A stretch of 28,041 nucleotides of DNA, taken from the IMG/VR virus record IMGVR_UViG_3300020054_000148, positions 1 to 28,041 of that record. One strand, written 5' to 3'. Below the pieces are notes generated by a model. That model did not search any database. It had not been told where the DNA came from and was given only the letters and a program-made list of their open reading frames with translations. The DNA comes from a virus. Positions 3,591 to 23,600 of this stretch are shown here, piece by piece (position 1 is the stretch's first letter; the number at the start of each line of letters is the position of its first letter). Both the position numbers and the translations under genes were made by a program.

Positions 3591-3760
3591 AGGTAAAAGA
3601 AGACGCACCAGCAGTTAGTACTGGTTCAATCCCTAACCCAGCAGTTACCTCTATGGGTCCAAGAATTAAAACAGTAAATGTAACTGACCGCCGTCGTAAA
3701 AAAGATAAAATACCAGTTCTTTTAAAACGATTTAGAAAGTATATAGAAGACAATGCTTAA
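3587..3760 (+). CDS. 57-residue phage protein with EDAPA motif, unknown function
   Basis: This small gene lies between two firm genes and accounts for an otherwise empty 160 bases. Its ATG overlaps the previous stop as ATGA, and its end overlaps the inner spanin start by eight bases. The product begins MKVKEDAPAVSTGSIPNP, has a TSMGPR stretch in the middle and ends in a basic helix with RRRKKDK and LLKRFRKYIED. An N-terminal EDAP motif followed by a Gly/Ser/Asn/Pro-rich stretch is a pattern I recall from short proteins or protein ends in T4-like phages. The overlaps on both sides and the protein-like composition support expression. Function is unknown. Confidence 0.7.
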   Translation: MKVKEDAPAVSTGSIPNPAVTSMGPRIKTVNVTDRRRKKDKIPVLLKRFRKYIEDNA

Positions 3761-4256
3761 GGTATACGTTCTTATTATTGTTCTTGGTATTCTTGGTGGT
3801 GTAGGTTACGGTGCTAAGTACTATTACGACACAACACAAGCAACTATTGCTACACTAAGAGAAAACAACGTAAAGCTTGAAGGAGCGGTAGAAACTGCAG
3901 AGGCAAGTATTGCACTTATGCAGGAAAATGCTGCTAAGATGCAAGAATTAAATAATCAATTAGCTTCTGATCTAAGACAGGCAGAAGCTTACAGTGATGA
4001 ACTAAGATCCAAATTCTCAAGACTTAACCTTGTACAGGATGCTCTTCGAGATAATGTAAAATTGGAAGGAAAGATGAATGGTGCAACTGCGAAACTTTGG
4101 CGTGAGCTCATGGCTGATACCGGTAGCTCTGATGACGTCCCTCTTCCTAGTTGGCTGCAGCCGCTACCAACCGGAACCGGAGATCAAAGTAGTGACCAAA
4201 GTGGAGAAGGTACAGATACCAACAGTATCGAGACCGAAGCCACTCCAGCTAACTGA
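3753..4256 (+). CDS. Inner-membrane spanin (i-spanin, Rz-like)
   Basis: The 167-residue protein has a single N-terminal membrane segment at about residues 3-22 (VYVLIIVLGILGGVGYG) followed by a long coiled coil to about residue 110, then a Pro/Ser/Thr/Gly-rich tail. That is the layout of an inner-membrane spanin, anchored in the host inner membrane with its coiled coil in the periplasm. Such proteins work with an outer-membrane lipoprotein to fuse the two host membranes in the last step of lysis. The partner is encoded in the +1 frame starting inside this gene at 4078, the Rz/Rz1 arrangement, and the overlap is 179 bases. Part of the low-complexity tail is thus probably shaped by the overlapping frame. 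No endolysin is seen in the window. Confidence 0.75.
   Translation: MLKVYVLIIVLGILGGVGYGAKYYYDTTQATIATLRENNVKLEGAVETAEASIALMQENAAKMQELNNQLASDLRQAEAYSDELRSKFSRLNLVQDALRDNVKLEGKMNGATAKLWRELMADTGSSDDVPLPSWLQPLPTGTGDQSSDQSGEGTDTNSIETEATPAN
4064..4070 (+). promoter_or_regulatory. Internal ribosome binding site for the outer spanin
   Basis: GGAAGGA lies inside the inner-spanin gene, seven bases before the ATG at 4078. It is a good Shine-Dalgarno match where none would be expected by the inner-spanin reading alone, and supports real initiation of the overlapping lipoprotein frame. Confidence 0.6.
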
Positions 4257-4485
4257 CGTCCGTGTATTTGTAGTAACTAAAGACACCCTTGAATCATTTG
4301 AAGCAGAATTCAAGGAGACTTATGGTGAGTTAGCCGTTGTTGTTCTTTCTATGCGTGACTATGAAAACCTAGCACTAAACATTGCTGAATTGAAAAGATA
4401 TATCGGTCAGCAAAAGAATATTATTGTTTACTATGAAGAGGCAGTGACTGACAATCCTGAACCGCAAGTTGAAGCAGCTCAATAG
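4078..4485 (+). CDS. Outer-membrane spanin lipoprotein (o-spanin, Rz1-like)
   Basis: The 135-residue product starts at an ATG inside the inner-spanin gene, in the +1 frame. Residues 1-27 are a lipoprotein signal: a short basic start (MVQLR), a hydrophobic core (WLIPVALMTSLF) and the lipobox LVGC with Cys27, followed by Ser28. Mature residues then have a Pro/Glu/Val stretch and a helical region to residue 120. It would be lipid-modified at Cys27 and sorted to the inner leaflet of the host outer membrane, where it bridges to the inner spanin across the periplasm. This implies a Gram-negative host. At about 108 mature residues it is longer than lambda Rz1 and continues well past the inner-spanin stop. 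Its stop overlaps the next gene by 17 bases. Confidence 0.8.
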   Translation: MVQLRNFGVSSWLIPVALMTSLFLVGCSRYQPEPEIKVVTKVEKVQIPTVSRPKPLQLTDVRVFVVTKDTLESFEAEFKETYGELAVVVLSMRDYENLALNIAELKRYIGQQKNIIVYYEEAVTDNPEPQVEAAQ

Positions 4486-5197
4486 ATGGTGGGTACCAGA
4501 CGAAGAAGAAGGTGATGGATATAAAGCCTGGACACCAGAAACCTGGCAAAATTATTTTTGTCAATTCACTGTAGACTTTTTCTGTTTAAATAAAAAAAGA
4601 ATATGTATCGACATTGGTGCAAATGTCGGTCAGACTACTATCGGATTTTCCCCTTATTTCCGAGAGATAAAATCATTCGAAGCAAACCCTATTGTATTTG
4701 AATGTTTTCAAAAGAATTTAGTTGAATATAATGTCAAGAATGCGATAGGATATAATTATGGTATTGGACCAGAGGAAAAATTATCTACCTTTAAATATAG
4801 GGTTGGAAGCTCTGGTATAAGTAGATTTATTGGTGATAATGAGACAGCGGAAACAGAATCTCTTCTTCTTAGTGATCTACCTATTAAAACCTTAGATTCT
4901 TTTAATTTCCTAGAAGTCGATCTTATTAAATTAGATATAGAAGGTTATGAAGCTCATGCATTACTTGGTGCAAAAGATACCATTCTTTATAATAAACCAA
5001 CTATTGTTCTAGAGATTGCGCGAAAACATTATAGTCAAAAAGAAAGAATACCTGTGATTATGAAGAATATGGGATACGTTGGTTTATTTAAAAGAAGAAG
5101 TGATTACTACTATGTCCCAGTAGAAAAAGGAATAGAGGTCGTGACAAACCTTCTGAAAAATTTCCCGGAAAATAATTGGGAATTAAACGGAATATAA
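4469..5197 (+). CDS. FkbM-family SAM methyltransferase (TTG start)
   Basis: This is a class I SAM-dependent methyltransferase of the FkbM type. Seen in the 242-residue product: motif I DIGANVGQ (residues 48-55), an acidic end to the second strand, FEANP (70-74), and KLDIEGYE (154-161), the signature of FkbM enzymes, which usually O-methylate sugars or other hydroxyl groups. No in-frame ATG occurs before motif I, and the N-terminal NRWWVPDEEEG looks like true protein, so the TTG at 4469 is the best start, 17 bases inside the outer-spanin gene. It ends the first block of genes; the next promoter follows at once. A second FkbM-type gene is cut by the right edge. The substrate is unknown; sugar methylation would suit the glycan genes downstream. 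Confidence 0.85.
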   Translation: MKQLNRWWVPDEEEGDGYKAWTPETWQNYFCQFTVDFFCLNKKRICIDIGANVGQTTIGFSPYFREIKSFEANPIVFECFQKNLVEYNVKNAIGYNYGIGPEEKLSTFKYRVGSSGISRFIGDNETAETESLLLSDLPIKTLDSFNFLEVDLIKLDIEGYEAHALLGAKDTILYNKPTIVLEIARKHYSQKERIPVIMKNMGYVGLFKRRSDYYYVPVEKGIEVVTNLLKNFPENNWELNGI

Positions 5198-5239: not shown

Positions 5240-5290
5240 ACTACCATCAAAATTAAAAATGTCAATAACACTGAACGCGAGTTTCGGTGC

Positions 5291-5295
5291 AGGAG
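5291..5295 (+). promoter_or_regulatory. Ribosome binding site fixing the nrdA start
   Basis: AGGAG lies six bases before ATG at 5302. It makes that ATG the probable start rather than the in-frame GTG at 5287, whose codons would run through this site. Confidence 0.75.
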
Positions 5296-5301
5296 TCCTT
5301 T

Positions 5302-7293
5302 ATGCAAAATACCATTAAGATTGATAAGTCAAAAGATAAGCTGCTAACAGAATATGCTGTTGGTATGCTTAAAGATTTCTATATGCGGAAGTCAGAGTCT
5401 TCACCCCAAGAAGCGTATGCTCGTGCAGCAACCGCATGGGCAACATTTAAAGGTCAGACAGATGATCTTTTGGCACAGCGACTATATAATGCCGTTTCAA
5501 ATAAATGGTTTATGTTTGCATCACCAGTTCTTTCAAATGCACCAAACGGTACAAAGAATGATAAAGGTATGCCTATTTCCTGTTTCCTAACTTATGTTCC
5601 AGATACACTTGAAGGACTAATCGATCATACTTCAGAACTACGATGGTTATCTGTTTATGGCGGGGGTGTTGGCGGTCACTGGAGCGACGTACGTACAGTG
5701 TCTGACATTGCTCCTGGTCCTATGCCTTTCTTACATACTGTTGATGCTGATATGATTGCATATAGACAAGGACGTACCCGTAAAGGCTCATACGCAGCCT
5801 ATATGGACGTTTCGCACCCTGATGTTATTGAATTCCTTAATATGCGTATACCGACTGGTGACGTACAACGTAAGGCTCTTAATTTGCATAATGCCATTAA
5901 CATCTCTGATGCATTTATGAATGCCGTTATAAAAAATGAAGATTGGGATTTGAAAGATCCGAAGGATGATGCAGTAAAAGAAACAGTCAATGCACGTAAG
6001 CTTTGGCAACGTATTCTTGAAACCCGTTTCCGTACTGGTGAGCCATATCTTAACTTTATTGATACAGCAAACAGACATCTACCGCAAAACCTTAAAGATT
6101 TAGGACTAAAAATCAATGGCTCTAACTTGTGTAATGAAATCCATCTACCAACTTCAGCTGAACGTACTGCGGTCTGTTGTTTATCTTCTCTCAACCTTGA
6201 ACTTTATGACGAGTGGAAGGATACTACTCTTGTCGAAGATCTTATCACTATGCTTGATAATGTGCTCGAGTATTTTATCGAAAATGCGCCAGATACAATT
6301 TCAAGAGCAAAGTTCTCTGCGGAGCGTGAACGATCTATTGGACTAGGTGCAATGGGTTTCCATTCACTCTTACAGAAACATGGTGTTGCCTGGGAGAGTG
6401 ATCATGCAAGAGAAATGAATAAAGTCGTGTTTGAAGATATCCAAAAGCGTGCTATTTCACAGACAGAAAAGCTTGCAAAGGAACGTGGTGAATATCCAGA
6501 TGGTATCGGTACTGGTCGTCGTAATGCGCATCTAATGGCTATTGCACCAAATGCTTCGTCTGGTATTATCCTTTCGACATCACCAAGTATTGAACCAAGT
6601 AAAGCAAATGCTTACACCCATCGTACACGTGCTGGTTCATTCCTTGTCAAGAACAAATATCTTGAAGAAGTACTAGATAGACACAATAATAACAATGAAT
6701 CTATTTGGACTTCTATTATTACAAATAAAGGTTCAGTACAACATCTACCATTCTTGACTGAAGGTGAAAAGGCAGTGTTCAAGACAGCACAAGAACTTGA
6801 CCAGAGCTGGGTGGTACAACATGCTGCAGACAGACAACCTTATATTTGTCAGGGTCAATCAGTAAACGTATTCTTTCCTGCTGGTGCAGAGAAATCATAT
6901 GTAAATAAGGTACACCTGAAAGCATGGAAAGAAGGACTAAAAGGACTTTACTACCTTCGTACAGAAGCAAAACAAAGAGCAGAAAATGTTTCTGAAAAAG
7001 TAGAACGTGTTGCTCTACGTGATGACGATCGTACTATTGTATATGGTAAGATTGATTGTCCATATTGTGCAAGAGCAAAAGAAGAACTTTCTTTACGTGG
7101 TATCCAGTTTGATTATATTGATCTACAAGAGATTGGTAAGACTGCAGCAGAAGTAACAGGACGTAAGGTAAAGACCGTACCACAAATCTATGTTAATGGA
7201 CAATACGTAGGTGGATACGATGAACTAATGGAATTTTTAAATCAACCAATGACAATTGAATCCGGTGATGAATGCCGGGCTTGTGAAGGCTAA
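5302..7293 (+). CDS. nrdA: Ribonucleotide reductase class I large subunit with inserted glutaredoxin domain
   Basis: NrdA reduces ribonucleoside diphosphates to deoxyribonucleotides for phage DNA synthesis, using the radical made by NrdB. In 663 residues one sees the active-site pair C94 (PISC) and C292 (AVCC), the N275-x-C277-x-E279 catalytic triad (NLCNEI), and the radical-path tyrosines Y550-Y551 (LYYLR). The redox tail C658-x2-C661 is at the very end (DECRACEG). Between core and tail, residues about 577-645, is a complete glutaredoxin: CPYC (586-589), TVP (625-627) and GGYDE. It would supply reducing power to the tail directly. The N-terminus starts with the helical core and no ATP-cone is visible, so overall dATP inhibition is probably lost. 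nrdB follows after 11 bases. The start is the ATG at 5302, chosen for its AGGAG. Confidence 0.95.
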   Translation: MQNTIKIDKSKDKLLTEYAVGMLKDFYMRKSESSPQEAYARAATAWATFKGQTDDLLAQRLYNAVSNKWFMFASPVLSNAPNGTKNDKGMPISCFLTYVPDTLEGLIDHTSELRWLSVYGGGVGGHWSDVRTVSDIAPGPMPFLHTVDADMIAYRQGRTRKGSYAAYMDVSHPDVIEFLNMRIPTGDVQRKALNLHNAINISDAFMNAVIKNEDWDLKDPKDDAVKETVNARKLWQRILETRFRTGEPYLNFIDTANRHLPQNLKDLGLKINGSNLCNEIHLPTSAERTAVCCLSSLNLELYDEWKDTTLVEDLITMLDNVLEYFIENAPDTISRAKFSAERERSIGLGAMGFHSLLQKHGVAWESDHAREMNKVVFEDIQKRAISQTEKLAKERGEYPDGIGTGRRNAHLMAIAPNASSGIILSTSPSIEPSKANAYTHRTRAGSFLVKNKYLEEVLDRHNNNNESIWTSIITNKGSVQHLPFLTEGEKAVFKTAQELDQSWVVQHAADRQPYICQGQSVNVFFPAGAEKSYVNKVHLKAWKEGLKGLYYLRTEAKQRAENVSEKVERVALRDDDRTIVYGKIDCPYCARAKEELSLRGIQFDYIDLQEIGKTAAEVTGRKVKTVPQIYVNGQYVGGYDELMEFLNQPMTIESGDECRACEG

Positions 7294-7304
7294 GAGGAGA
7301 AAAC

Positions 7305-8270
7305 ATGTCACTCACAGAAGTATCTAAAACTTATCGCCCGTTCCTATACCCATGGGCAGTAGAACTAACAAAGAAACATGAAGAGATCCATTGGGTCGAA
7401 GACGAAGCAGAATTATCAGAAGATGTACAGGATTGGAAGACCAAACTATCTGAAGAAGAAAAGGAATTTGTTACACAAGTTCTTCGTCTGTTTACACAGT
7501 CTGATGTTCAGGTAGGTGAAAATTACCATGAGCTTCTTATTCCTAAGTTTAAGAATAATGAAGTTCGTAACATGCTTTCTTCCTTTGCTAACCGTGAAGG
7601 TGTACACCAACGTGCATATGCACTTCTGAATGATACACTTGGTTTACCTGATGAAGAATTCCATGCATTCCTTGAATATAAGGAGATGGCAGATAAGATT
7701 GAATTTATGTCACAGGGTAATCCGAATACACTACAAGGCCTTGCACTTATTATGGCACAGTCTGTATTTAACGAAGGTATGAGCTTGTTTGCATCGTTTG
7801 TAATGTTGCTGAACTTCCAGCGCTTCGGCAAAATGAAGGGTATGGGTACAATCGTTGAATGGTCAATACGTGATGAATCAATGCACGTACAAGGTATTGC
7901 TAAACTGTTCCGTGAGTTCTGTGATGAACATCCACGTATCGTTAATGATGAACTGAAGTCAAAGATCTACCAGATGGCAAAAGATGCAGTAAAACTAGAA
8001 GATGCATTTATTAAACTTGCATTTAGTGGCCTAGATGAAGTTCAGGGATTAACAAAGCAAGAGGTAAAAGATTACATCCGTCACATTGCAGATCGTCGTC
8101 TCCTACAACTTGGTATGAAGCCAACGTTCAAGGTAAAAGATAATCCGCTACCTTGGCTCGATTGGGTACTAAATGGTGCTTCACATGATAACTTCTTCGA
8201 AAAACGTGTAACCGAATATTCAGTTACTTCTATGGAAGGTGACTGGGACTGGGAAGAAGAAGCTGCATGA
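7305..8270 (+). CDS. nrdB: Ribonucleotide reductase class I small (radical) subunit
   Basis: This is the 321-residue ferritin-like subunit that houses the metal cofactor and the tyrosyl radical needed by NrdA. The expected ligands are all seen: D67 (TQSD), E98 and H101 (REGVH), E157 (NEG), E191 and H194 (RDESMH). The radical tyrosine is Y105, seven residues after E98, so this is a conventional tyrosyl-radical type rather than a metal-free or Phe-substituted form. The C-terminal tail is acidic and ends in DWDWEEEAA, where NrdB tails bind NrdA. AGGAG occurs in the gap after nrdA, and the downstream zinc-ribbon gene overlaps the stop by ATGA, so the three genes probably form one unit under the promoter at 5207. 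Confidence 0.95.
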   Translation: MSLTEVSKTYRPFLYPWAVELTKKHEEIHWVEDEAELSEDVQDWKTKLSEEEKEFVTQVLRLFTQSDVQVGENYHELLIPKFKNNEVRNMLSSFANREGVHQRAYALLNDTLGLPDEEFHAFLEYKEMADKIEFMSQGNPNTLQGLALIMAQSVFNEGMSLFASFVMLLNFQRFGKMKGMGTIVEWSIRDESMHVQGIAKLFREFCDEHPRIVNDELKSKIYQMAKDAVKLEDAFIKLAFSGLDEVQGLTKQEVKDYIRHIADRRLLQLGMKPTFKVKDNPLPWLDWVLNGASHDNFFEKRVTEYSVTSMEGDWDWEEEAA

Positions 8271-8445: not shown

Positions 8446-8874
8446 ATGTGGTATTATAATGATAGAGAATTTAATCCCTCCGAAGACGAACTACGAGATT
8501 GGCAAGGATTCGTATATATCATCACGGATCTCACCAATAACAAAAAGTACGTGGGAAAGAAGGGATTCTGGTCAAGAAAAACATTACCCCCACTCAAAGG
8601 GAAAACCAGGAAAAGACGTAGTATTGTGGAATCCGACTGGCAGAAGTACTACGGATCATCTGATCTTGTTAAACAACTCCTTGAGGAAAAGGGTGAGCAG
8701 GGCTTTCGCCGTGAAATATTACATCTCTGTAAATCAAAGGGGGAAATGTCTTATCTTGAGGCGAAGGAACAGTTCGATAGATCTGTACTGCTAGATGATA
8801 CATATTATAATGGTATTATTAACTGTAGGATCCATCGATCCCATGTTCAGAGGCTAAAGGATGATAATTTATAA
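8446..8874 (+). CDS. GIY-YIG-like putative endonuclease
   Basis: The 142-residue product has the two halves of a GIY-YIG core: GFVYIITD (residues 21-28) and, after a short turn, KKYVGKKGF (33-41), with a following basic stretch and an acidic ESDWQKYYGSSD. Enzymes of this kind are homing endonucleases, repair nucleases or host-DNA nucleases in T4-like phages. The two motif halves are divergent (F-V-Y and Y-V-G), so activity is not certain. The gene lies between the nrdA/B unit and a methyltransferase-like gene, where mobile endonucleases are often found in T4-like genomes. No good ribosome binding site is seen before ATG 8446. It overlaps the next gene by 14 bases. Confidence 0.65.
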   Translation: MWYYNDREFNPSEDELRDWQGFVYIITDLTNNKKYVGKKGFWSRKTLPPLKGKTRKRRSIVESDWQKYYGSSDLVKQLLEEKGEQGFRREILHLCKSKGEMSYLEAKEQFDRSVLLDDTYYNGIINCRIHRSHVQRLKDDNL

Positions 8875-17423: not shown

Positions 17424-18246
17424 CCTTTCAAAGACTACTATTGACTTTAAATGTACCCCTGGGGTCGGTGACTTCATGTACATTCTTTCTGTTGCTTATA
17501 TGAGGTCGTTTGTGTTACAGAAGACCGTGACACTGAATCTACATTGGTATCATGACAAGGATTATCTGTTCCACTTTGAAGATCCAGAAACTATCCTCGA
17601 GCGTTTCGAATATGTGAATAATTTCTATTTAAAAAATAATACTGATGTGGTAATCAATCACCTCTTTAATGCAAATGATAGTTCATTATACACTAAAAGA
17701 TATTATGGTTTCAAGAAAGGTTGGGGACAGGAAAAGCCAGATCCTAGGTTTATCGGTCTTAAATATAACAGTTGGGAGTTTCGACCTAGTGTGCTAGAAA
17801 CAAATCCTAACAAGATTGTAGTTTGGACACAACTACAGAATGCTCAGACCCCACGTGGCTTTAAACAACCATTTGAGAGACATGGATGGGAAGAAGCACA
17901 GAGACGTATAGAAGCTCACGGATATGACATTACAGAAATCTCATATAGAACACCAATCCGTGAAGTAATGTACCATATAGCTACATGTAGAGCAACAGTA
18001 TCCTATGAAGGTATGTGGCACTATATAGCAAAGAATTATCATAAACCTATGATTGTTGTGTCAGCTGACTTGATAACAGAACTTCATACACCAAATGCTT
18101 TATCTTTTGCAAAACAAAAACCTACAGAGTATGACTGGTTTGACTATCACTGGTTTGATAACTTCGATTCCCATTTGGAGGAAGCGACAGCGCTTGCCCA
18201 CAGGGGCGAACGACTTATTAGAAAATTACATAAGAAGGTAGACTAA
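17353..18246 (+). CDS. Putative GT-B-type glycosyltransferase
   Basis: The 297-residue protein begins with a basic leader, then CTPGVGDFMYILSVAYMRS (about 34-52), an N-terminal glycine-rich loop as in GT9/heptosyltransferase-type enzymes. The C-terminal half has KIVVWTQLQNAQTP, a Rossmann strand, then EISYRTPIREVMYHIATCRATVSYEGMWHYIAK, reading as the donor-binding region where heptosyltransferases have xxDxxxxH-type motifs. The overall layout fits a two-domain GT-B fold, but no diagnostic residue makes this firm. It overlaps the previous gene by 71 bases and the radical SAM gene by one. The target sugar is unknown. Confidence 0.55.
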   Translation: MSHQNYIRRDLTVEKFKRAWKPTNLSKTTIDFKCTPGVGDFMYILSVAYMRSFVLQKTVTLNLHWYHDKDYLFHFEDPETILERFEYVNNFYLKNNTDVVINHLFNANDSSLYTKRYYGFKKGWGQEKPDPRFIGLKYNSWEFRPSVLETNPNKIVVWTQLQNAQTPRGFKQPFERHGWEEAQRRIEAHGYDITEISYRTPIREVMYHIATCRATVSYEGMWHYIAKNYHKPMIVVSADLITELHTPNALSFAKQKPTEYDWFDYHWFDNFDSHLEEATALAHRGERLIRKLHKKVD

Positions 18247-19205
18247 TGGAAATAGATCGTGCAGTAATTGAAATTAATGGTGGATGTAACTACACTTGCC
18301 AGATGTGCCCACAGACTAATCCAGACGGATCTACTGGAGCACGTGGTAAGAACTGGCTTAAGAAAATGTCTCTTGACGAGTTCGAAGATGCTGTTGCACA
18401 ATGTACTGAAGCAGGATTACGTGTAGTAAATCTTGAAGGATCTGGTGAACCAACACTCAACAGCAACCTACCAGAATACATTGCAATCGTGAAGAGGTAT
18501 GGTGCAAAAGCATTCTGCTTCTCTAACGGGTTCCGTATGCGTGATCAGTTTATGCGTGACTGTGTAGATGCTGGATTAGATTTCTTCCGTTTCTCTATCA
18601 TTGGATATAATCATATTGAATATAATAAGTGGATGAACAGTAATAACTTTCAATTTGTTCTTAACAATCTAAAATCTATGCAGGAATATGTTACCGAATC
18701 TGGATCAGACTGTGTTGTAGCTACCTATCATTTGATCCTTGATAATAACAATATTGATAATGAAGTAAAAATGTATCGCAATATTGTTGACTGGGCTGGT
18801 GTAAAAACTGAGATCTGGAAGATGCATAACTGGAGTGGGGTATATGAACCAGAATATGGAAGAGAAGGCGCAATCAAAACATGCGGACGTCCATTCAGCC
18901 CGGACGTTGTCATTCGAGCAGGCGGTCTTGGGGGTGAGCGAGGAGCAGTTGCACCTTGTTGCCAAGTACTTGGAAGAGACGATGAAGCAGTCCTTGGTCA
19001 CCTCAGTGAAGAAAGCCTTAGAGACATATGGTACGGGGAGAGGTACGAATCTCTGCGAGATGGCCACCGTACAGGTAACTACCCAGATTACTGTAAAGGA
19101 TGCGACTTCTTGATTGATGATCCAGAAGTCTTAGTCTATACAAATCACGAACGTGATCTCTACAAGATGCACGGGACGGAATTTGATCTGAATGATTATC
19201 GATAA
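18246..19205 (+). CDS. Radical SAM enzyme with SPASM-like C-terminal cysteines
   Basis: The 319-residue protein has the CxxxCxxC cluster motif at C14, C18 and C21 (GGCNYTCQMCPQ), which binds the 4Fe-4S cluster that cleaves SAM. It is followed by NLEGSGEPTLNSNL, the GEP motif that binds SAM, and further strands. The C-terminal part has TCGRPF, PCCQV and YCKGCDF, spaced as in SPASM domains that hold extra Fe-S clusters. SPASM enzymes often modify peptides or proteins, but some act on sugars or other small molecules. No precursor peptide is seen nearby. It is flanked by glycosyltransferases, so the substrate may be a sugar or glycosylated peptide. The start overlaps the upstream stop as TAATG. 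Confidence 0.85.
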   Translation: MEIDRAVIEINGGCNYTCQMCPQTNPDGSTGARGKNWLKKMSLDEFEDAVAQCTEAGLRVVNLEGSGEPTLNSNLPEYIAIVKRYGAKAFCFSNGFRMRDQFMRDCVDAGLDFFRFSIIGYNHIEYNKWMNSNNFQFVLNNLKSMQEYVTESGSDCVVATYHLILDNNNIDNEVKMYRNIVDWAGVKTEIWKMHNWSGVYEPEYGREGAIKTCGRPFSPDVVIRAGGLGGERGAVAPCCQVLGRDDEAVLGHLSEESLRDIWYGERYESLRDGHRTGNYPDYCKGCDFLIDDPEVLVYTNHERDLYKMHGTEFDLNDYR

Positions 19206-21996: not shown

Positions 21997-22674
21997 ATGT
22001 TTGATGCTTATATTATAACCACGATCAATGCATTTGATGATGATAAGGTTCGCGCGCTCACGAAGAGATGTGTTGATTCTTGTCGTGCTTATAATATTAA
22101 ACCTATTTTATTTGATGCAGTTGTTCCTGCTACCTTGGAAAAATATTATCCAGGTTGGCCAGTACGTGAAGATTATCGTGAACGACTTCTCAATAATTAC
22201 CGTAAGAAAGCTGGTAAAGAACCAACAAAAGAAATCGAGAACCGAATGATTGTTATGCAACAATGTATGACAATGAGTCATTATGAGGTTCGTAAAAAGA
22301 TTATCCAAAATGGTTATCCAGCTATTATTCTAGAACATGATGCTATTGTACAACGTCAGTTAGATGTTGGACAACCATATAACCAGTTTGCTGTCAATCT
22401 ATGTAAACGTGAACAAGCTACACATGGTTATGCTATTGGCCCAGAACCAGCAAAGAAATATAATGATATCTATGAAGATCTTGGCTTTGCTGGTCATGAT
22501 AATATGAATCGTTATATCAACGAAGAACAAATTATTAAAATTACACCATATAGAGATTCAAATCCTGTTGTAGTTGGTAACGCACTTCATGAAAGTCAAT
22601 GGGATACACATAGAGGTGCAGTCAAGACCAAGCTTGATTATGTACCAACTACAACGTCAGGAGTATACAAATGA
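21997..22674 (+). CDS. GT25-like glycosyltransferase
   Basis: The start at 21997 (MFDAYIITTIN) aligns with the starts of the relatives at 24266 and 25906; ATG 21979 inside the repeat would add six residues. The 225-residue product has AYIITTINA, FDAVVP (39-44), MSHYEV (93-98) and ILEHDAIV (111-118), as in other GT25-like enzymes. The donor and acceptor are unknown. Overlap with the epimerase is ATGA. Two of these features, the YII-type strand and the SHY...EHDA pair, are repeated in all four GT25-like genes here, so the four probably arose by duplication. Confidence 0.75.
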   Translation: MFDAYIITTINAFDDDKVRALTKRCVDSCRAYNIKPILFDAVVPATLEKYYPGWPVREDYRERLLNNYRKKAGKEPTKEIENRMIVMQQCMTMSHYEVRKKIIQNGYPAIILEHDAIVQRQLDVGQPYNQFAVNLCKREQATHGYAIGPEPAKKYNDIYEDLGFAGHDNMNRYINEEQIIKITPYRDSNPVVVGNALHESQWDTHRGAVKTKLDYVPTTTSGVYK

Positions 22675-23600
22675 GGGTATTCATTACAGGTATTGCTGGA
22701 TTTATTGGATTCCATACAGCTCTACATTATAAAAAGAAAGGCTGGGACGTTTGGGGTATTGATAACTTCAATGATTATTATGATCCTAAACTAAAAAGAA
22801 AAAGACAGGATCTTCTGGTCCAAGAAAAAATAAAAGTAATGGAAGGTGATATTCGGTCTAAAAGTTTTGGCGCATACGTTCCAAAAGAAATAGATCTTGT
22901 TATACATCTTGCAGCCATGGCTGGTGTACGTTATTCTATGGATCACCCTGAAGAATATATTGATGTCAATATTGTTGGTACACAGAATGTTATTCGTTGG
23001 TGTGAAGAAAGAGATATAAAAGAAGTCATCTATGCATCTACCTCTTGTACAATGCATGGTAATCCGTTACCATGGAACGAGGATGAAAAACTTGGTAATC
23101 ACCTCAGCCCATATGGTTATACAAAGGCAACAAACGAACAGCAGTTCCGTACATCGAAGATCAAGAATGCAGTCGGTCTTCGATTCTTTACTGTGTATGG
23201 TCCGTGGGGTAGACCAGACATGGCACTCTTTTCATTTACAAAGAATATCCTAAATGGTAAACCAATTACAGTATTTAATAATGGTGATATGAAACGTGAT
23301 TTTACTTACGTAGATGATATTGTACAAGGTATTTGGTTGGTGTCACAGAACATGACGAAACGTGATATCTACAATATTGGATATGGTAAACAAGTTGAGC
23401 TGATGCATTTTGTCCATCGAATTCAGGAGGAGCTTGGCATTAATGCAGAGATTGAATATGCACCAGCACATCCAGCTGATGCAAAAGAAACTTGGTCAGA
23501 CACTCTCAAAATACAAAAGCTAGGATATAGCCCAACTACACCTATAGATAAAGGTGTGTATGAATTTATAAGATGGTACAGGAGTTACTATAATGATTAA
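22671..23600 (+). CDS. NAD-dependent nucleotide-sugar epimerase, UDP-glucuronate-4-epimerase-like
   Basis: The 309-residue product is a short-chain dehydrogenase-type sugar enzyme: GIAGFIG (7-13) binds NAD, D31 follows the second strand, and the catalytic pair is Y148 and K152 (YGYTK) with serines in STSCTM. HLAAMAGVRYSMDHPEEYI closely resembles UDP-glucuronate 4-epimerases and related UDP-sugar epimerases, and FFTVYGPWGRPDMA and RDFTYVDDIV support this. It would convert a nucleotide sugar, such as UDP-glucuronate to UDP-galacturonate, supplying the operon's glycosyltransferases. It overlaps the previous gene as ATGA and the next by eight bases. Confidence 0.85.
   Translation: MRVFITGIAGFIGFHTALHYKKKGWDVWGIDNFNDYYDPKLKRKRQDLLVQEKIKVMEGDIRSKSFGAYVPKEIDLVIHLAAMAGVRYSMDHPEEYIDVNIVGTQNVIRWCEERDIKEVIYASTSCTMHGNPLPWNEDEKLGNHLSPYGYTKATNEQQFRTSKIKNAVGLRFFTVYGPWGRPDMALFSFTKNILNGKPITVFNNGDMKRDFTYVDDIVQGIWLVSQNMTKRDIYNIGYGKQVELMHFVHRIQEELGINAEIEYAPAHPADAKETWSDTLKIQKLGYSPTTPIDKGVYEFIRWYRSYYND

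Follow-up and report, generated by a model that had tools for sequence, protein, structure and literature searches.

The window examined here, i.e. the whole stretch of 28,041 nt at positions 1 to 28,041 of the IMG/VR virus record IMGVR_UViG_3300020054_000148, carries the two adjacent genes of a class I ribonucleotide reductase (RNR), nrdA and nrdB. All features of the two genes are given on the plus strand. The gene nrdA (nrdA-grx; 5302..7293) runs from an ATG at 5302 to a stop at 7293, with a ribosome-binding site AGGAG (5291..5295; read from the sequence) 7 bases upstream of the ATG. Based on Pfam, NCBIfam and the open reading frame, it encodes an alpha subunit of 663 aa with an internal glutaredoxin (Grx). 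The Pfam matches along the protein are, in order, Ribonuc_red_lgN (all-alpha), Ribonuc_red_lgC (barrel, E 3e-113) and Glutaredoxin PF00462 (E 1.3e-12; 48.2 bits against a cutoff of 22.9). The best-scoring curated NCBIfam model is the PRK09102 alpha subunit (765.5 bits, cutoff 620), whose match halts just ahead of the Grx. Together with the core tree discussed below, this match puts the protein putatively in the NrdAk subclass.

The catalytic core, which is without an ATP-cone, comprises residues 1-553 (5302..6960), as delimited by the Pfam and NCBIfam matches, alignment invariance and a search for the ATP-cone. It has the residue set of class I alpha subunits (E. coli C225, N437, C439, E441, C462, Y730 and Y731, on a 10-strand barrel core), which in the alignment correspond to C94 (5581-5583), N275, C277 and E279 (6124-6138), C292 (6175-6177) and Y550-Y551 (6949-6954), the latter being the Tyr pair of the radical path. 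These residues are invariant among 109 aligned NrdAs, except for C292, which is found in 108 of them. After YYLR, the alignment shows a Cys-free linker of 24 residues (554-577; 6961..7032), which leads into the Grx domain (residues 578-647; 7033..7242), as placed by the Pfam match at 7036-7209 and by PDB matches. The last Grx helix is separated by a spacer of ~10 residues (648-657; 7243..7272), defined by sequence comparison, from the C-terminal redox tail CRACEG (658-663; 7273..7290). The tail was identified by alignment, and its CxxC (C658/C661) is the C-terminal redox Cys pair of class I NrdA.

An 11-bp gap, which contains a second ribosome-binding site AGGAG (7295..7299; read from the sequence), separates nrdA from nrdB (7305..8270). 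Pfam, NCBIfam and alignment identify the nrdB product as a class I radical-generating subunit of 321 aa, in which neither a Grx nor an ATP-cone is found by Pfam search. It has the conserved metal-ligand pattern D, ExxH, E, ExxH (E98, H101, E157, E191 and H194), plus Tyr105, and its closest solved chain is 9dws.

Just downstream of nrdB, the window encodes a SegE-type GIY-YIG endonuclease (8446-8874; Pfam SegE_GIY-YIG, E 1.4e-37). A SegE gene also adjoins nrdB in L095, a 142-kb contig that is binned as a Sphingobacteriales MAG. As its nrdA-grx and SegE surroundings match those of the window, this contig is probably of phage origin and misplaced in a bacterial bin. The RNR genes here look like homing-element targets. 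Elsewhere in the window there is an overlapping spanin pair in different frames (3753-4256 and 4078-4485), made up of an inner-membrane Rz-like protein (PHROG 739, 13) and a lipoprotein Rz1-like protein (PHROG 812). In addition, an FkbM-type methyltransferase (4469-5197), a nucleotide-sugar epimerase (22671-23600) and a weak radical-SAM match (18246-19205) suggest that the RNR operon is surrounded by genes for modifying glycans or nucleotides.

Identity of the glutaredoxin domain and absence of an ATP-cone

The motifs of the inserted domain, as read from the sequence, are CPYC (7057-7068; residues 586-589, i.e. C586/C589), TVP with the cis-Pro (7174-7185) and GGY (7210-7224), which are the glutathione-site motifs of a Grx. 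Its best PDB matches are the glutaredoxin 1 and glutaredoxin 3 chains 1ego and 1fov. Fold family and motifs point to a dithiol glutaredoxin, for which a glutathione (GSH)-dependent activity is predicted. An identity as an NrdH-redoxin is contradicted by the TVP and GGY GSH motifs, and there is no NrdH model among the matches listed. Across 71 aligned fusions, the cis-Pro motif reads TVPQ in 68 and SVPQ in 3, and the GG motif is kept in all except one (70/71), while the CPxC dithiol motif is present in all fused members. Judged by one close pair, in which pN is 0.019 vs. a pS of 0.304, the Grx is under purifying selection.

Pfam search reveals no ATP-cone (PF03477) in either RNR subunit or anywhere else in the record, or in any of eight complete or long phage genomes. 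Moreover, the stop-to-stop frame of nrdA opens at 5275 of the window, and thus there is no space for a hidden N-terminal cone in NrdA. The first-pass annotation, which had been made from the sequence of the window, was therefore right that NrdA has no N-terminal cone. It had also treated this as part of a compact design, and this does not hold: the cone is likewise missing from the alphaproteobacterial relatives and the Grx-less phages of the same NrdA family, and the cone-less state has already been noted for NrdAi/NrdAk and cyanophage NrdAs (PMC6370689). Since it is common to the Grx-less relatives and the bacterial homologues, the absence of the cone is no part of the novelty of the insertion. 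With no cone on either subunit, the window RNR, like other members of the NrdA family, would lack a general dATP shut-off, and a loss of dATP inhibition is to be expected for it.

Distribution and evolution of the core-Grx-tail layout

The layout is found in the NrdA of C48C1 (Kyanoviridae), which is 77% identical to that of the window, and in other deposited phages, namely: Delftia phage PhiW-14; cyanophages S-TIM5, S-TIM54, S-TIM61 and S-TIM66; Synechococcus phage S-CBWM1; and Acinetobacter phages nACB2 and SH-Ab 15599. In IMG/VR, hundreds of contigs match a C-terminal query. A set of 234 full-length NrdA ORFs, which is enriched for the fusion since several of the queries included the Grx, contains 148 with the fused layout. 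Thus, the first-pass annotation, whose coordinates are also correct, was right to place a complete CPYC Grx between the core and the CxxC tail, as confirmed by the Pfam order, by the motifs and by 148 NrdAs, whereas its view that an insertion at this position is unusual does not stand after a search of NrdAs in which, in a partly enriched sample, 148 of the 234 ORFs are fused.

In all 148 fused NrdAs, the terminal CxxC is followed by exactly two residues and so begins at the sixth position from the end, and none of them has a Cys between the YY and the Grx. Of the 71 aligned fusions, 53 have a spacing of 35 residues from the Tyr (Y551) to the first Grx Cys and the others one of 22-28, and the spacer between Grx and tail is still shorter in L228 than the ~10 residues of the window. 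Because Grx-less relatives carry the same type of tail (ECVACQG, ECLACHA and similar), the Grx is placed inside the linker, and the simplest reading of the tail is that it is the ancestral one. On the sequences collected, the layout is fixed in one large marine phage clade and is found in two further clades; the source of the window is a marine-type phage. An assembly chimera, a frameshift or chance was rejected as an explanation, given that numerous independent contigs and also cultured phages have this layout and that selection on the Grx is purifying. Among the genome-scan matches listed, none of the fusions is on a clear bacterial chromosome; these matches include at least two fusions, both on MAG contigs, one of which is L095.

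Several variants of the gene were also encountered. NrdA ORFs of 817-1020 aa are present in L259:2480-5101, L087:2246-3271, L086, L181, L189, L194 and L199. An intein is annotated in the NrdA of S-CBWM1, and in the Acinetobacter phage NrdA the SNLC active-site segment is interrupted by an intein splicing match that is below the Pfam cutoff. In L031:2547-4435 and L079:2481-4462, nrdA is broken into two frames, probably by assembly or sequencing frameshifts.

The core tree separates the fused NrdAs into three groups: group I, to which the window belongs; group II, which is S-TIM5-like; and group III, which includes PhiW-14 and the Acinetobacter phages. Grx-less phages fall between groups I and III. 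In the Grx tree, group II forms a separate, fully supported clade, and group III joins group I. Group II probably goes back to a separate insertion at the same position, and the trees as a whole point to two or more insertions at this linker site; a single origin of all fusions was rejected, as group II is distinct on both the core and the Grx trees. A single core clade of groups I and III is only marginally rejected by the AU test (p 0.0485). For the Grx type common to these two groups, one fusion with losses and the transfer of a Grx-tail segment are both possible.

One glutaredoxin on either RNR subunit

A scan with a core-only query yielded 80 loci, 77 of which extend to the Grx and 76 of which have NrdB present. 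In this sample, the Grx is found in all 77 NrdAs that reach that region and in none of the 76 NrdBs. The sister clade was scanned with the NrdA core of Methylophilales phage Melnitz, which is 68-70% identical to that of the window; among the cultured Grx-less relatives, Melnitz is the closest. In the Melnitz-type clade, no NrdA has a Grx, and an N-terminal Grx is present in 71 of 71 complete NrdBs; two more loci give a solo Grx match, with NrdB split or cut there. It should be noted that the patterns in both scans are at the level of clades and thus reflect few evolutionary events. In eight complete or long phage genomes, there is exactly one Grx each, and it is always fused to the RNR (NrdA in seven, NrdB in Melnitz). 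Across these comparisons, the operon keeps one Grx, whichever subunit carries it. Thioredoxin (Trx) is absent from seven of the eight phage genomes, only S-TIM5 having one. For pyridine-nucleotide disulfide (flavin) reductases, there is no match over the cutoff in the phage genomes searched, and thus glutathione reductase would have to come from the host.

Other arrangements are found within the same RNR family. The NrdBs of Citromicrobium phage RXM (L094:3787-5055) and Sphingobium phage Lacusarx (L258:4646-6046) have a C-terminal Grx, which constitutes a third fusion position. In Agrobacterium phage Atu_ph07 (L092:2549-4438), nrdA has its own tail and is followed 12 bases on by a free grx gene, an arrangement that is a possible precursor of the fusions; a free grx near nrdA is also present in RcXuper. 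Two routes to the NrdA fusion were considered and rejected. Stop-codon read-through into an adjacent grx, as could be envisaged from Atu_ph07, would yield the order core-tail-Grx, which is seen in none (0/148 with a linker Cys). Relocation of a Melnitz-type NrdB Grx into NrdA via a shifted gene boundary is at odds with the Melnitz NrdB Grx and the window Grx being 27-36% identical and not grouped on the tree.

That Grx fusions are known for some RNR subunits, as the first-pass annotation had said, is borne out by Rozman Grinberg et al. 2018 (PMC6187632). In that paper, the Grx fused to Facklamia ignava NrdB (NrdBi) is an efficient GSH-driven reductant, Grx::NrdB is also listed for Francisella (NrdBk) and 24 viruses, and grx::nrdA is mentioned in passing for ‘two viruses’; its text does not describe the position of the Grx relative to the tail, its distribution or its alternation with NrdB fusions. 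The two viruses are probably Delftia phage PhiW-14 and cyanophage S-TIM5, both of which show core-Grx-tail in public records and whose NrdAs are 44% and 38% identical, respectively, to that of the window.

The Grx::NrdB systems (Facklamia, Francisella and Melnitz-type) resemble the window in having a single Grx on a single RNR subunit, but their Grx is at the N-terminus of NrdB (at the C-terminus in RXM and Lacusarx), while that of the window is inside NrdA before the tail. Of the F. ignava-type arrangement, the window has the subunit fusion and not the N-terminal position on NrdB; the F. ignava RNR also has an ATP-cone, unlike that of the window. The cone-less NrdAs of the NrdAk/PRK09102 type (alphaproteobacteria, pelagiphages and vibrio phages) share the core family and the CxxC tail with the window, but have no Grx between the two, the distance from the Tyr to the tail Cys being only 17-60 residues. 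The class II NrdJd likewise has an extra C-terminal redox module that mediates turnover, although this module is a zinc-bound Cys array with no Grx and is not reduced by the redoxins tested (PMC5704485). Thus, the principle is known from Grx::NrdB, and what appears to be new is the arrangement within NrdA ahead of the tail and that it is widespread.

A proposed redox relay and its alternatives

Class I RNRs reduce their active-site disulfide with a C-terminal Cys pair, on which Trx, Grx or NrdH acts as reductant in turn (PMC6187632). In the window RNR, each turnover would oxidise the active-site pair C94/C292, and the tail CxxC (C658/C661) would enter the active site and take over the disulfide. 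The tail would then be reduced by the CPYC (C586/C589) of the neighbouring Grx domain, which ends ~10 residues upstream of it; this could happen in cis or between the two chains of the alpha dimer. Host glutathione and glutathione reductase would re-reduce the Grx. Such a relay would need the tail to reach both the active site and the Grx across this short spacer. The Grx would be placed in the flexible linker, and not at the end, so that the tail remains a free C-terminus, which a read-through fusion with a downstream grx would not allow.

We consider it highly probable that the window RNR alpha subunit carries its own reductant in the form of a GSH-dependent dithiol Grx. This had been proposed in the first-pass annotation and is the best reading of the locus: the Grx is intact and has the GSH motifs, the conserved tail comes next, and the domain is the sole Grx in the complete genomes checked. 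Both Cys pairs, the GSH-site motifs and the length of the linker are conserved, and the Grx of a close pair shows little non-synonymous change, all of which argues for a built-in reductant that works. From this layout we infer the electron path, the action in cis or trans and the benefit to the phage. The papers found contain no biochemistry on any grx-nrdA protein, and the main reductant might still be a Trx or Grx of the host. The independence from host redoxins that had also been claimed is plausible, but it would not extend to host glutathione, glutathione reductase and NADPH, which would still be needed given that no flavin reductase is found over the cutoff.

The fused Grx might instead act mainly in trans, on the tails of other NrdA chains or on other phage or host proteins, with the fusion only securing stoichiometry and co-expression. 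The Grx on NrdB in the sister phages and the free grx in Atu_ph07 and RcXuper indicate that the Grx need not be covalently linked to NrdA, and the sole Grx of these genomes may serve other targets. However, the strict linker length in 53 fusions suggests that geometry matters, as does the fact that distant NrdAs have convergently acquired the insertion at one site, and we regard this explanation as unlikely.

Far less probable is that the Grx replaces the tail, with the CPYC acting directly on the active-site disulfide and the terminal CxxC left as a relic. The CPYC does lie 35 residues past Y551, inside the 17-60 range of the tail Cys in the Grx-less relatives, and the automatic alignment superposes the two, but the terminal CxxC is invariant (148/148) and the active site of class I RNRs is too narrow to admit a folded Grx. 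We give equally little credence to a redox-regulatory domain, by which the Grx would sense the glutathione state or glutathionylate NrdA, gating the enzyme in place of the ATP-cone. While the cone is indeed missing and the fused Grx of Facklamia can take a monothiol route (PMC6187632), the CPxC dithiol motif is present in all members and the cone-less, Grx-less relatives of the same family do without a Grx.

The preferred reading is hence that of a GSH-dependent reductant built into NrdA. In its fullest form, the whole relay of active site, tail and Grx would be on one chain, the insertion would be recurrent and independent, and the sister phages would have fixed the same solution on NrdB with a different Grx; the tail would obligatorily be recharged in cis or within the dimer, and the dNTP supply would be free of host Trx, host Grx and dATP feedback. 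For this fuller account taken as a whole, we hold the balance to be even.

The redoxins of RNRs are normally separate proteins that are shared with other pathways. That phages keep one Grx and build it into either RNR subunit suggests that, during infection, dNTP synthesis is limited by the supply of redoxins. NrdA-Grx is a single-chain system in which the recharging of the tail could be trapped structurally, and the NrdA-Grx and Grx-NrdB sister clades are a natural pair in which to compare tethering geometry.
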